Shown here: one piece after another, positions 59,653-64,000 of the stretch
Layout: each line of letters starts with the position of its first letter
How positions within the stretch are numbered: the first letter of the stretch is position 1
NCBI RefSeq assembly: GCF_002252675.1
Contig: NZ_NQKY01000001.1
Coordinates: 79,315 to 143,314, forward strand
Length of the DNA stretch: 64,000 nt
Source: Synechococcus sp. BO 8801
Lineage (GTDB): Bacteria > Cyanobacteriota > Cyanobacteriia > PCC-6307 > Cyanobiaceae
Reading direction: 5' to 3'
Notes under the pieces: generated by a model
Database searches by the model: none
Seen by the model: only the letters and a program-made list of their open reading frames with translations
Told to the model about the DNA's origin: nothing
Translations under genes and position numbers: made by a program

Positions 59653-61011
59653 TCAGCCGGGCATGGTGACGAACTCCTCGGCCACCGAGGGGTGCAGGGC
59701 CATGGTGCGGTCGAAGTCGGCCTTGGTGGCCCCCATGCCGATGGCGATCGCCGCCATCTGAATGATCTCGGCGCTGTGCTCGCCCACCATGTGGCAGCCC
59801 ACCACCTTGTTGGTGGCCGCCTCCAGGATCAGCTTGAGCAGCACCCGGGGGCCCCGGGCCGGCAGGGCCTGGGCCATGGGCCGGAAGCGGGCCCGGTGCA
59901 CCCGGATGCCTTCGCTGCCGAAGCGTTCGATCGCCGCCTCCTCGCTCAGCCCCACCCCGGCCAGTTCCGGCTGGCTGAACACGGCACTGGCCACCAGGTC
60001 GTGATTCACCTGGCGGGGCTTGTTGCCGTAGACGGTGTCGGCAAAGGCCCGGCCTTCGTCCACCGCCACCGGGGTGAGGTTGATGCGGTCGGTCACGTCG
60101 CCCACCGCATGGATGTGGGGCACGTTGGTGGTCTGGTCGGCATCCACCGGGATGCGGTGGCCTTCCACCGCCACCCCGGCGCACTCCAGCTGCAGCCCCT
60201 CGAGGAAGGGCCTCCGGCCCGTGGCCAGCAGCACGCCGCCGCAGGGCAGCACCTCACCGCTCTGGGTGACCAGCTCCAGGGCCCCGGGCACGCCGGTGAT
60301 GGCGGCGGGGCTGTGGGCGAAGCGGATCTCGATGCCTTCAGCCTCCATGGCCTCCTGCACCGCATGGGAGGCCTCCCGGTCGAAGCCCCGCAGCAGGTGG
60401 TCGCCCCGCACCAGCAGGGTCACCGCCACACCCAGGCCATGGAGGATGCAGGCGAATTCGCAGGCGATGAAGCCCGCCCCCACCACCACCACCCGGTCCG
60501 GGAAGCGCTCCTGCAGGAACATGTCGTCGCTCACCCAGCCCAGTTCGGCCCCGGGGAAGCTGGGACGGTGCGGCCGGCCACCGGCGGCGATCAGGATCCG
60601 TTCCCCCTTGAGCCGACGGGTGGTCTCGGCGCCCTGGACCACGTCGATGTGGTGGGGATCGGCGAAGCGGCCCCAGCCCCGCACCAGCTCGACGCCCGCC
60701 TTCTCCAGCAGGGTGATGTGCAGCTGGTTGAGCCGGTCCACCTCGCGGCGCACATTGGCGAGCAGCACGGAGGCGTCGGGCCGGAAGCCATCCAGCTGCC
60801 AGCCGTAGCTGCTCGCATCGGCCAGCAGGTGGCGGTAGGCCGAGCCGTAGACCAGCAGTTTCTTGGGCACGCAGCCGCGGATCACGCAGGTGCCCCCCAC
60901 CCGATCGCCCTCCACGATCGCCACCGAGGCCCCGTAGGAGGCCGCCCGTTTGGCGGCCGCCAGGCCACCTGAGCCCGCCCCGAGGACGATCAGATCGAAG
61001 CAGTCGGTCAT
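59653..61011 (-). CDS. gor: Glutathione reductase
   Basis: A 452-residue FAD-disulfide reductase that regenerates glutathione with NAD(P)H. FAD site VLGAGSGGLAAAKRAA near residue 10; the redox-active pair Cys42/Cys47 in GGTCVIRGCVPKK; NADP-binding VVVGAGFIACEFA; and the C-terminal MALHPSVAEEF containing the catalytic His-Glu pair. The VIRGCVPKK form is typical of glutathione reductase as opposed to lipoamide dehydrogenase. The 5' end overlaps the pentapeptide gene by 4 bases. Confidence 0.93.
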   Translation of the reverse strand: MTDCFDLIVLGAGSGGLAAAKRAASYGASVAIVEGDRVGGTCVIRGCVPKKLLVYGSAYRHLLADASSYGWQLDGFRPDASVLLANVRREVDRLNQLHITLLEKAGVELVRGWGRFADPHHIDVVQGAETTRRLKGERILIAAGGRPHRPSFPGAELGWVSDDMFLQERFPDRVVVVGAGFIACEFACILHGLGVAVTLLVRGDHLLRGFDREASHAVQEAMEAEGIEIRFAHSPAAITGVPGALELVTQSGEVLPCGGVLLATGRRPFLEGLQLECAGVAVEGHRIPVDADQTTNVPHIHAVGDVTDRINLTPVAVDEGRAFADTVYGNKPRQVNHDLVASAVFSQPELAGVGLSEEAAIERFGSEGIRVHRARFRPMAQALPARGPRVLLKLILEAATNKVVGCHMVGEHSAEIIQMAAIAIGMGATKADFDRTMALHPSVAEEFVTMPG

Positions 61012-61688
61012 GGCAGCAGGGCGTCGTGGAGCACGGTGCCTTCCAGCATGGCGTCCCGGAGATCGGTGTCCCGCAGGTCGCAGCCGCTCAGATCGGCATC
61101 ACGCAGGTCGGCGCCTCCCATGTTGGTGCCGTAGAGGCAGGCACCGCGCAGATCACTCCCCTGCAGCTGGGCACCCTGCATCTGGGCGAAGCTGAGGTCG
61201 GCCCCCTGGAAATCGGCCCCGCCCAGGTCGGTGGGCTGGTCGAGCCCGCCGCGGAAGTCGGCCTCCACCAGCCGGGTGGACCGCCAGCGGCTGTGGGCCC
61301 CGAGCACCCCCCGCAGACAGCAGCGGTGCATCAGGGCGCCGCCGAAATCGGCCCCCTGCAGCCGGGCCGCCGACAGGTCGGCGTCGTGCCAGAAGGAGCC
61401 GCTGGCCTTGAGACCGGAGAGGTCGGCCCCCCAGAGCAGGGCCTGCTGGAAGCAGGCGGCCTCCACGTTCGCTCCCGCCAGCCGGGCATGGCCGAACCGA
61501 CCTTCCTTGAAGCAGCCGCCGTGCAGGTCGCAGTCGCCCAGATCCAGGGCCACGCCATCGAGATCCCCCAGCCGCAGACCGGCGAAGTGGCGGCGGCCTG
61601 CGGCCAGGGCGTCTTTGAGGGCCTCCAGGTCGGCGGGGAGGTCGCCCGGAAGATCGGCGGGACGGTCAGAGGATGGCCGCAAGGGCAT
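61008..61688 (-). CDS. Pentapeptide-repeat protein
   Basis: A 226-residue protein made mostly of A(D/N)LxX pentapeptides, which form a right-handed quadrilateral helix. Clear runs are GADFQGADLSFAQMQGAQLQGSDLRGACLYG and GGADLRDADLSGCDLRDTDLRDAMLEG. No signal peptide or membrane helix. Function is unknown; some family members mimic DNA. It starts inside the 3' end of the ArsR gene (23-base overlap) and overlaps gor, so the three may form an operon. Confidence 0.88.
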   Translation of the reverse strand: MPLRPSSDRPADLPGDLPADLEALKDALAAGRRHFAGLRLGDLDGVALDLGDCDLHGGCFKEGRFGHARLAGANVEAACFQQALLWGADLSGLKASGSFWHDADLSAARLQGADFGGALMHRCCLRGVLGAHSRWRSTRLVEADFRGGLDQPTDLGGADFQGADLSFAQMQGAQLQGSDLRGACLYGTNMGGADLRDADLSGCDLRDTDLRDAMLEGTVLHDALLP

Positions 61689-61971
61689 CGAGTTGCTGGC
61701 GGCGGGAAGCGAGCATCAGCTTCCGGGCCTGGGCCAGGAGCTGGAAGACGCCCTTGTCGATCACTTCATAGAACACCAGGCTGCCTTCGGGACGGCGACG
61801 CACCACCCCGGCGATCGTCAGCAGCTTGAGATGCTTGGACACGAGGGCCTGGCTGAGGCCGGTCTTCTCGACGACGGCCGTGACGTTCAGGGGGCCCGGC
61901 CGCAGGGTCTCAAGCACGGTGAGCCGGTTGGGCTCGGAGAACACCTTGAAGTAGTCGGCCAGAGATTCCAT
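61666..61971 (-). CDS. ArsR-family repressor without Cys
   Basis: A 101-residue winged-helix regulator starting at ATG 61971. MESLADYFKVFSEPNRLTVLETL and VTAVVEKTGLSQALVSKHLKLL are characteristic of ArsR. There is no Cys at all, so the thiol metal or persulfide sites of ArsR, SmtB or SqrR are absent and the signal is unknown. Divergent from the AcsF paralogue, whose 146-base control region contains repeated GTGA/TCAC elements; it probably regulates that gene pair. Confidence 0.88.
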   Translation of the reverse strand: MESLADYFKVFSEPNRLTVLETLRPGPLNVTAVVEKTGLSQALVSKHLKLLTIAGVVRRRPEGSLVFYEVIDKGVFQLLAQARKLMLASRRQQLDALAAIL

Positions 61972-62037
61972 CGACCGCAGCGAAGCCCGGGATGGTGGCG
62001 AGGCTACCACGCTTGCGTCTCAGACTGTTGATACAGA

Positions 62038-62085
62038 ATCGTGAAACCACAGGTCTGCTTCACCTGGATCACGTAGTATCACGAT
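62038..62085. promoter_or_regulatory. Repeated GTGA/TCAC elements in the arsR-acsF gap
   Basis: Contains ATCGTGA (62038-62044) and its perfect inverse TCACGAT (62079-62085), plus internal TTCAC and GATCAC copies. GTGAA-N13-TTCAC at 62041-62063 is another inverted repeat. Multiple overlapping arms between the divergent arsR and acsF genes suggest an operator for the ArsR protein. Confidence 0.45.
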
Positions 62086-62117
62086 GTCGTTATGACGCGA
62101 GCCAGCGTCGCCCCCTG

Positions 62118-63146
62118 ATGACCGCCACCCTCTCCACCCCTGCTGCGGCGCCCCACCTGCGGGAAGACCTGCTGACCCCGCGCTTCTACACGACCCAGAT
62201 CGCCAAGGCGGCCCGCACGGATCTGGAGCCGCAGCGGCCGGCCTTCGACGCGATGCTCGCCGAGATGGAGGCGGACTACAACCGCGACCACTTCGATCGC
62301 AAGGCACCGCTGGACCGGCTCCGGGACCTGAGTCCTGAGGAGAAGGAGGCGTATGAGAGCTACCTGGTGCGCTCCTGCGTGTCGGAGTTCTCCGGTTTCC
62401 TGCTGTTCAAGGAGCTTTCCCGGCGGCTCCTCCAGGCGCAGCGTCCCGAGATGGGGCGGCTGTTCCAGCTGATGGCCCGCGATGAGGCCCGCCATGCCGG
62501 TTTCCTCAACCGGGCCCTGGTGGCCGAGGGCATCGAGATCGACCTGCCCAGCCTCAGCACCAAGCGGCCGATCACCTGGTTTCCCCTGAGCTGGGTGCTT
62601 TACAGCGTCTTCCTGTCGGAGAAGATCGGCTACTGGCGGTACATCCTCATCGACCGCCATCTCAAGGCCCACCCCGACAGCAACTTCGCGCCGCTGTTCG
62701 ATTTCTTCGAGCCCTGGTGCCAGGACGAGAATCGCCATGGCGACATCTTCAACATGCTGATCCGCTGCTGGCCGGCCCTGCGCCAGGGGCTGCGCGGCAA
62801 GTTGCTGAGTCGCTTCTTCCTGTGGTCGGTGTTTCTCACCCACAGCCTCACGGTCTGTGAGCGCGGCGAGTTCTACGGGATCCTGGGGATGGACCCGGAG
62901 GCCTTCGACGCCGAGGTGATGCGTCAGACCAACCGCACGGCCCGCCGGGCCTTCCCCTGGGTGTTCGATCTGGAATCCGGCGGCTTCATCGCCCTGCGGG
63001 ATCGCCTTGTCGCCTGCTTCCAGGAGATGGGCGCCGCCCGCCGCCAGGGGGCCGGCCCCTGGCGCCAGATCGGCCTGAGGCTGCGCTTCGGCGGGCTGCT
63101 GTGGCGGCAGTTCTGGCAGCCGATGGTGCGGGCGGAGGCGGGCTGA
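62118..63146 (+). CDS. acsF: AcsF-family Mg-protoporphyrin IX monomethyl ester cyclase homologue
   Basis: A 342-residue diiron protein starting at ATG 62118. AcsF/ChlE motifs: LTPRFYTT, RSCVSEFSGFLLFKELSRRL with Glu90, LMARDEARHAGFLN with Glu123 and His126, SEKIGYWRYI, and WCQDENRHGD with Glu204 and His207. It catalyses, or once catalysed, formation of the fifth (isocyclic) ring of chlorophyll. The linkage to an ArsR repressor and an ADO-like gene, and a divergent C-terminus (RRAFPWVFDLESGGF...), suggest a specialised or condition-specific paralogue, though it could be the only copy. Confidence 0.85.
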   Translation: MTATLSTPAAAPHLREDLLTPRFYTTQIAKAARTDLEPQRPAFDAMLAEMEADYNRDHFDRKAPLDRLRDLSPEEKEAYESYLVRSCVSEFSGFLLFKELSRRLLQAQRPEMGRLFQLMARDEARHAGFLNRALVAEGIEIDLPSLSTKRPITWFPLSWVLYSVFLSEKIGYWRYILIDRHLKAHPDSNFAPLFDFFEPWCQDENRHGDIFNMLIRCWPALRQGLRGKLLSRFFLWSVFLTHSLTVCERGEFYGILGMDPEAFDAEVMRQTNRTARRAFPWVFDLESGGFIALRDRLVACFQEMGAARRQGAGPWRQIGLRLRFGGLLWRQFWQPMVRAEAG

Positions 63147-63222
63147 GCCCGGGCTGCCCGCGGCTTTCCCTGCGGCCTCCACCAGCGGATCGTTCAGCTC
63201 CTGTTCCCTTGCTTCCTCTCCC

Positions 63223-63912
63223 ATGCCCCAGCCCCATCTGAGCGCCGCCTACTGCGACGCCTACAGCCGCATCAACGCCCTGGTGATCGTGGGTGAGGGC
63301 CTGGCGGACAGCCACTTCCGCCTGCTGGCCGGCCTCCTTCCGGAGGACCGGGACGACCTGCTGCGGCTCGCCGCCATGGAGGGGCACCATGCCCGCGACT
63401 TCTCCGGCTGCGGCAGGCAGCTGGGGATCCGCCCGGATCTGCCGCTGGCGCGCCGGCTGTTTTCGCCGCTGCATCGCCTGTTCCGTGAGGCTGTGAGCAG
63501 CGGCGACCGCGTCAGCGCCCTGGTGATCCAGTGCCTGATCGTGGAAAGCTTCGCCGTGGCCGCCTACCGCTGCTACCAGCCGGTGGCCGACCCCTTCGCC
63601 GCGCCGATCATCGAGTCGGTGCTCACCGATGAGGCCGAACACCTCGAGTACGGCGGACGCTGGCTGGCGGCCTGGTTCCCGGAGGTGGCCGCACCGATCG
63701 CGGCCTGCTGCGAGCGCGCCCTGCCGATCGTGCTGGCCATGCTCCAGAGCGTCCGCGACGACCTGACCGCCATCGGCATCAATCCCACCGACCTGGTGGG
63801 CGAATTCGTGGGCTGCTTCCAGGCGGCGATTGAGATGGTGGGCTTCCCCCCGTCCCAGGCCCGCGCTCTGGTGGCGCGACTGGCTGGCCGGGCGGTGGAG
63901 GTGGCGGCCTAG
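63223..63912 (+). CDS. Divergent aldehyde-deformylating-oxygenase-like diiron protein
   Basis: A 229-residue ferritin-like protein. All six diiron ligands of cyanobacterial ADO are conserved in position: Glu25, Glu53, His56, Glu108, Glu137 and His140. DAYSRINA at residues 12-19 and VADPF are strong ADO signatures. Elsewhere it differs: EGHHARDF for the usual EQRHMKGF and a Gly at GG after LEY. ADO turns fatty aldehydes into alkanes and normally sits beside acyl-ACP reductase, which is not present here. It is coupled by position (76-base gap) to the AcsF paralogue. Alkane production is therefore not assured. Confidence 0.75.
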   Translation: MPQPHLSAAYCDAYSRINALVIVGEGLADSHFRLLAGLLPEDRDDLLRLAAMEGHHARDFSGCGRQLGIRPDLPLARRLFSPLHRLFREAVSSGDRVSALVIQCLIVESFAVAAYRCYQPVADPFAAPIIESVLTDEAEHLEYGGRWLAAWFPEVAAPIAACCERALPIVLAMLQSVRDDLTAIGINPTDLVGEFVGCFQAAIEMVGFPPSQARALVARLAGRAVEVAA

Positions 63913-63913
63913 G

Positions 63914-64000
63914 TCAGAACCCCGCCTCATCGAGCATGCCGCGCAGCACCTCGGCGCTGTGGCGCAGCTGCCCCATCTCCTTCTCGGTCAGGGCCATCTG
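63914..64000 (-). CDS. 3' end of a minus-strand gene, possibly malate/lactate dehydrogenase
   Basis: Only the last 28 codons are inside the window, ending in a TGA at 63914-63916. The C-terminal residues (LTEKEMGQLRHSAEVLRGMLDEAG) are helical and resemble the end of lactate/malate dehydrogenases, but this is too short for a secure identification. Confidence 0.35.
   Translation of the reverse strand, partial: QMALTEKEMGQLRHSAEVLRGMLDEAGF

Follow-up and report, generated by a model that had tools for sequence, protein, structure and literature searches.

Low-oxygen (microoxic) gene clusters of cyanobacteria have been described as chlAII-ho2-hemN in Synechocystis 6803 and as acsFII-ho2-hemN-desF in Synechococcus 7002, each of which groups an AcsF paralogue with a second heme oxygenase and HemN while the canonical copies lie elsewhere in the genome (PMC4500134, in the sections available to us). 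According to those sections, the four Synechococcus 7002 genes are induced at low oxygen and are reported targets of ChlR, whose gene is divergent from acsFII; DesF is regarded as the low-oxygen isoform of an oxygen-using desaturase; and some published microoxic clusters are also without chlR (PMC4500134). For aldehyde deformylating oxygenase (ADO), the available text of one source calls the biological role of cyanobacterial alkanes poorly understood (PMC8661006), and another, as excerpted, reported in 2014 two ADO homologues in each of Cyanobium gracile PCC 6307, Synechococcus CB0101 and RS9917, Cyanothece PCC 7425 and Leptolyngbya PCC 7375 (PMC3903477).

Evaluating a 64,000-nucleotide stretch of contig C1 (hereafter the window) from the 3.27 Mb draft genome of Synechococcus sp. 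BO 8801, we found open reading frames for an ArsR-family regulator, an AcsF-type protein and an ADO-like protein. The initial annotation had described an ArsR gene running divergently to adjacent AcsF-paralogue and ADO-like genes, and this arrangement is present, with frames at 61666-62010 (-), up to 63146 (+) and at 63223-63912 (+), among the following features:

61008..61688, minus strand: pentapeptide-repeat protein (PPR), 226 aa; Pfam Pentapeptide at 108.9 bits
61666..61971, minus strand: ArsR-family regulator, 101 aa from ATG 61971; Pfam HTH_5 and NCBIfam HTH_metalloreg
62077..62094, no strand: operator-like inverted repeat TATCACGATGTCGTTATG between arsR and acsF2, 23 bp before the acsF2 ATG
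62118..63146, plus strand: acsF2 (chlAII-type), paralogue of the oxygen-dependent Mg-protoporphyrin IX monomethyl ester cyclase, 342 aa; NCBIfam AcsF and PRK13654 over cut-off
63223..63912, plus strand: ADO2, a diverged paralogue of aldehyde deformylating oxygenase, 229 aa, separated from acsF2 by 76 bp
63914..64000, minus strand: lactate/malate dehydrogenase-like gene, 3' end only, continuing beyond the window (L004:5229-6269)

The ArsR frame opens at GTG 62010, and because the inner methionine is the start in most orthologues, translation probably begins at ATG 61971; the likely start of AcsF2 is ATG 62118. A scan of 61900-63300 for consensus promoters and terminators returned no match. Beyond the window the contig continues through the dehydrogenase-like gene and a small gene to a heme oxygenase (ho2, C1:145132) and HemN (C1:145835), some 2-4 kb past ADO2. 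The dehydrogenase-like gene occurs in close relatives only and is therefore probably an insertion in this genus rather than part of the cluster core. Opposite ho2 (L004:6450-7016, minus strand) lies the gene for a small conserved protein with the motif LxAPxGQLSxDGQLRELIxERR ... WLQLRFGG, of which there are 36 intact sequences in all; this small gene before ho2 has no Pfam match, and a second operator-like site sits by its start.

With ho2 and hemN so close beyond the window, the locus has the gene content of the described microoxic chlAII-ho2-hemN cluster, of which it is the picocyanobacterial version. An AcsF paralogue keeps company with a second heme oxygenase and HemN, aerobic-type acsF1 (C18) and the higher-scoring heme oxygenase HO1 (C11) lie elsewhere in the same genome, and, as in Synechococcus 7002, a regulator gene is divergent from the AcsF paralogue. 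Unlike the Synechocystis 6803 and Synechococcus 7002 clusters, as far as the available sections describe them, the locus carries an ArsR gene with its own conserved operator-like site in place of a MarR-type ChlR, an added ADO paralogue and a PPR gene coupled to arsR, with hemerythrin-like (HHE) and GT8 genes joining in other genera (PMC4500134). A search of 14 ADO2 genomes for relatives of ChlR, which is an activator elsewhere, using as query the L236 protein picked by position and a CX4CP motif, gave no match in 6 and distant matches (<=49%) in 8, with the nearest in the present genome about 18 kb away; since some published members are likewise without chlR, according to the available part of PMC4500134, this lowers the case for a ChlR-type cluster and not that for a microoxic one. 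The parts that are new relative to the known cluster are ADO2 and ArsR with its site. In the open-access literature we found no ADO paralogue or ArsR tied to a low-oxygen cluster, although low-oxygen Prochlorococcus work and the original Synechococcus 7002 ChlR work fall outside that scope and may hold an earlier mention.

AcsF2 scores 351.9 bits against the NCBIfam AcsF model (TIGR02029, cut-off 192.5) and also exceeds the PRK13654 cut-off. The initial annotation took the unit to be specialised rather than housekeeping chlorophyll synthesis and suggested looking for a second, canonical acsF and ADO. Both were found, acsF on C18 (492.9 bits) and ADO on C30 (393.9 bits) adjoining the genome's single AAR, which excludes acsF2 as the sole acsF and the ADO-like gene as the sole ADO and is in keeping with a specialised unit. 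The counter-case named in that annotation, a sole acsF expressed constitutively, thereby loses its first half.

We interpret the locus as the left part of a low-oxygen isozyme cluster of picocyanobacteria under ArsR repression that would be released as oxygen falls, a reading to which we assign a probability of about 0.6. The cluster itself is real and conserved, and it is probably co-regulated. Under the low-oxygen reading, ArsR bound to the candidate site at 62077-62094 would shut off acsF2-ADO2 in air, ho2-hemN would come under the same control through the related site upstream of ho2, and falling oxygen would, by analogy, release ArsR; second versions of oxygen-using enzymes, working with less oxygen, would then be made, AcsF2 serving chlorophyll, HO2 bilins and ADO2 alkanes, together with the oxygen-independent HemN, and ADO2 would draw on the single AAR. 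Repression by ArsR, its release under low oxygen and the direction of control are suggested by analogy with the low-oxygen gene set. Oxygen is the best of the signals proposed in the initial annotation (oxygen, redox, porphyrin status), because ho2 and hemN lie just past the window's end. In favour we count the second copies standing together with the first copies (AcsF, ADO, HO) elsewhere and HemN alongside, the conserved order, the ADO2-acsF2 linkage, the site distribution, the HHE ligands and psbA genes in or near the loci, as well as, by analogy, the low-oxygen induction of the Synechococcus 7002 homologue given in the available part of PMC4500134. Against it, ho2 and hemN of this genome are cut off from ADO2 by the reverse-strand dehydrogenase and the small gene, and the site before ho2 is weak here (17.1 bits).

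To assess the regulatory element, we evaluated the gap between arsR and acsF2, in which several inverted arms had been noted and the region 62030-62090 proposed for a DNA-binding assay. The arms are real, with one pair recovered by an inverted-repeat search (62038-62050 / 62073-62085), but the conserved operator-like repeat at 62077-62094 sits further right and partly outside the proposed region. An EM motif search, with the palindrome imposed in the model, revealed a TATCACGATGTCGTTATG-like repeat of >=15 bits in 47 of 66 non-redundant regions upstream of ArsR genes, at a log-likelihood of 401 vs 28 for shuffled sequences that kept single-base content only. Unconstrained k-mer counts gave the same motif, with CATAACGAC in 23 of 81 upstream regions vs 5 for the commonest shuffled 9-mer. 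A search of the whole genome (3.27 Mb) allowing <=3 mismatches recovers no TATCACGATGTCGTTATG beyond the window's copy, and from this and the EM contrast we conclude that the repeat is more than chance.

Sites of >=16 bits stand upstream of HHE (26/26), acsF2 (21/51) and ho2 (25/43, these regions lying outside the motif training and the count omitting 2 of 45 frames >300 aa), and upstream of none of the ADO2 (0/54), HemN (0/45), desaturase (0/14) or GT (0/20) genes. Of 900 windows drawn at random from these loci, 27 reach the same score, which counts against the low-oxygen reading; 0 of 900 shuffles do. Seeing related sites before ho2 and never before ADO2, we consider it most likely that ADO2 is expressed on the acsF2 transcript; the pattern as a whole would fit two operons, one running from acsF2 to ADO2 and preceded by the first site, the other comprising ho2-hemN and preceded by the second, with no site before ADO2, HemN, the desaturase or the GT gene. 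Among ArsR loci that have no acsF2, the best site within 300 bp reaches just 4.6-12.6 bits in L145, L148, L151, L184, L188, L194, L198 and L199 (L195 was left out) and 16.4 bits in L187 (Synechococcus SynAce01), where the ArsR orthologue stands beside a type III polyketide synthase-like gene with no acsF2 nearby. In L137 (reverse complement), psbA lies directly opposite ArsR, with a 22.6-bit site.

The regulator belongs by sequence to the winged-helix ArsR/SmtB family (Pfam HTH_5 32.6 bits vs a cut-off of 22; NCBIfam HTH_metalloreg 73.1 vs 55) and shares with it a short inverted-repeat site at a divergent promoter region, yet it differs in having neither Cys nor a recognisable metal site. That it is Cys-free, as first described, holds for the window protein and for the 101-residue core of 46 orthologues except for one residue in L085, and the HTH is near-identical among these 46. 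Metal- or thiol-sensing residues are not found in all ArsR/SmtB members, and none is recognisable in the Cys-free core here. Lacking metal and thiol ligands, ArsR shows no sign of sensing oxygen directly, which weighs against the low-oxygen reading. The N/S rate ratio of the gene is 0-0.16 vs five relatives, and the named strains nearest by ArsR belong to Cyanobium, Aphanothece, Synechococcus and the like.

The PPR gene and the end of arsR share 23 bases; the two genes adjoin in most fetched loci and are likely co-transcribed. In this genus the last 4 bases of the PPR gene also belong to a glutathione reductase gene (window 59653-61011, minus strand), and on account of this overlap arsR, PPR and gor may form one transcript. 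C53, C124, C203 and H121 of PPR are kept in 44/44 orthologues and C184 in 43/44; its best natural PDB match is 3du1 (All3740) and its best named NCBIfam match is HetL, under the cut-off. HetL acts on the regulator HetR. Given these matches and the gene overlap, a switch of ArsR by PPR as protein partner is thinkable, and it is possible that a partner such as PPR lies behind sensing by the Cys-free ArsR. The absence of any known sensor residue in ArsR, the retained Cys/His residues of PPR and the abutting glutathione reductase gene would also suit a unit switched through ArsR, perhaps with PPR, by sulfide, light, iron, or tetrapyrrole or glutathione redox state, with low oxygen merely correlated. 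We hold this to be unlikely, as the neighbouring genes are the published low-oxygen set (PMC4500134, available sections) and hemerythrin-like and psbA genes join the cluster in other genera.

Turning to the ADO-like protein, ADO2 scores 202 bits against Pfam Ald_deCOase (cut-off 28) and falls below the cut-off of the NCBIfam equivalog TIGR04059 (205.5 vs 222.65), as do the ADO2s of L041 and L049. The ADO2 of L049 matches PDB entry 5ux2, deposited as 'Aldehyde decarbonylase', without a difference across 226 residues, so that the clade has a member with a solved structure; we take the source organism of 5ux2 to be Synechococcus RS9917. Phylogeny, as suggested initially, placed ADO2 in its own clade, split from ADO1 at 100/100 and separated from all ADO1 by a long branch (47 ADO2, together with 16 ADO1 taken from this and other families; midpoint root, leaving out ADO2 <215 aa or with stops). 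The family's own ADO1s are grouped at 100/100 and stand apart from ADO2, which rules out ADO2 as a recent copy of them. Like the described ADO of the ADO-AAR pair, ADO2 has the diiron ligands, all six being identical in 47/47 aligned sequences; unlike it, ADO2 has no AAR neighbour, lies in a separate clade and scores below the curated cut-off.

ADO2 might have left alkane synthesis, acting on another aldehyde, in aldehyde detoxification or in oxygen consumption, while the rest of the cluster remains a low-oxygen tetrapyrrole set. The sub-threshold TIGR04059 scores, the long branch, the lack of a second AAR in this genome and the fixed or frequent changes near the active site in the ADO2 clade (e.g., E46V, N54H, Y55F, Y161 to A/G/S, in the numbering of the genome's own ADO1) would favour this. 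It is set against the intact diiron ligands and the retention of Q126, Y138 and D159, which correspond by numbering shift to Gln110, Tyr122 and Asp143 discussed in the available part of PMC5356278. The wider ADO alignment of that source, as available, already holds Phe at Tyr39 in 8 sequences and Ser/Ala at Tyr145 in several (PMC5356278), and we regard the loss of alkane synthesis as doubtful.

One difficulty for the preferred low-oxygen reading is that ADO2 is presumably an oxygen consumer too, an odd choice when oxygen is scarce unless it binds oxygen with higher affinity. In a bolder version, which we think rather unlikely, ADO2 would be a low-oxygen ADO with higher oxygen affinity that defends alkane synthesis as oxygen runs out, and the sensorless ArsR, switched by the co-transcribed Cys-bearing PPR, would be a new oxygen/redox switch that replaced ChlR in the family. 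A hypoxic isozyme operon is a possible reason for the retention of two alkane-making enzymes in some cyanobacteria, and an ADO version tied to low oxygen, if true, would tell when alkanes are needed. With a reason for the second picocyanobacterial ADO, a so far unexplained list of genes would become a testable question (ADO1 vs ADO2 oxygen affinity), and ArsR with its site is a candidate oxygen-response regulator for a family without a close ChlR relative (14 genomes).

To evaluate distribution, we searched 399 genomes of the order, which are related, so that the counts are not independent events. A second ADO >200 bits was present in 54 (ordinary ADOs scoring ~184 bits or less), a 55th genome (G310) holding a fragment only, and 74 genomes carried an AcsF2 above 500 bits. 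The AcsF2 type occurs in all 54 ADO2 genomes, full-length in 51 and, at the same locus, split, degraded or at a contig end in G208, G353 and G382. Conversely, 23 of the 74 genomes with full AcsF2 have no intact ADO2 (G040 and G010 hold remnants only), so ADO2 is dispensable, which counts against the low-oxygen reading. Among 386 genomes sampled across the phylum, the ADO2 query found none outside its own family at 180 bits. The present genome resembles the five strains reported in 2014 in having two ADO genes (PMC3903477, as excerpted). In G550 and G633, genomes of other families, the second ADO resembles ADO1 more closely and lies away from acsFII, which rules these out as the same thing as ADO2. 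Three of the five strains with two ADOs are picocyanobacteria.

Surveying the flanks of all 54 ADO2 genomes (53 relatives' loci and our own), we found ADO2 and AcsF2 in one locus in 51, with no AcsF2 within the stretch examined in L054, L082 and L086. In 49 of the 51 both genes share a strand, with ADO2 downstream of acsF2, and the two rearranged loci (L043, L047) still have them adjacent, convergent and 18-19 bp apart. They are direct neighbours in 22 loci, 8 with a 4-bp overlap, and elsewhere are separated by a desaturase, a GT8-like gene or both, such that the order PPR-ArsR | (HHE)-acsF2-(desaturase)-(GT8)-ADO2 ... ho2-hemN recurs across genera. The desaturase gene is present in 14 of 54 fetched loci. 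The HHE gene precedes acsF2 in 26 and keeps all seven hemerythrin ligand positions, assigned on an assumed spacing, in 25-26/26, the single HHE scanned falling under the Pfam cut-off. Loss or decay of ADO2 in some relatives would also suit ordinary redundancy, with ADO2 a hitchhiking old duplicate of no special role or regulation; this we consider very unlikely, as linkage is kept across genera and rearrangements and ADO2 is under purifying selection (N/S rate ratio 0.25-0.30 vs five relatives).

An ArsR profile, from whose 86 relatives 80 were retained, added named loci in which this arrangement recurs; among them are clusters without ADO2 and ArsR genes that stand alone. Several loci have psbA in or beside them (e.g., L041:12802-13920, and after hemN in L041, L042 and L045), and a protein with sigma-54-interaction AAA and 4Fe-4S domains is encoded near the cluster at L049:12402-14549 and also, e.g., in L043, L058, L176 and L185. 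In L183 and L185, MAGs labelled Prochlorococcus or uncultured cyanobacterium, ADO2-GT8 is convergent to acsF2, and L183 has two AcsF-type genes within the cluster; L178, titled as a Bifidobacterium breve MAG and likely mislabelled, carries the cyanobacterial cluster.
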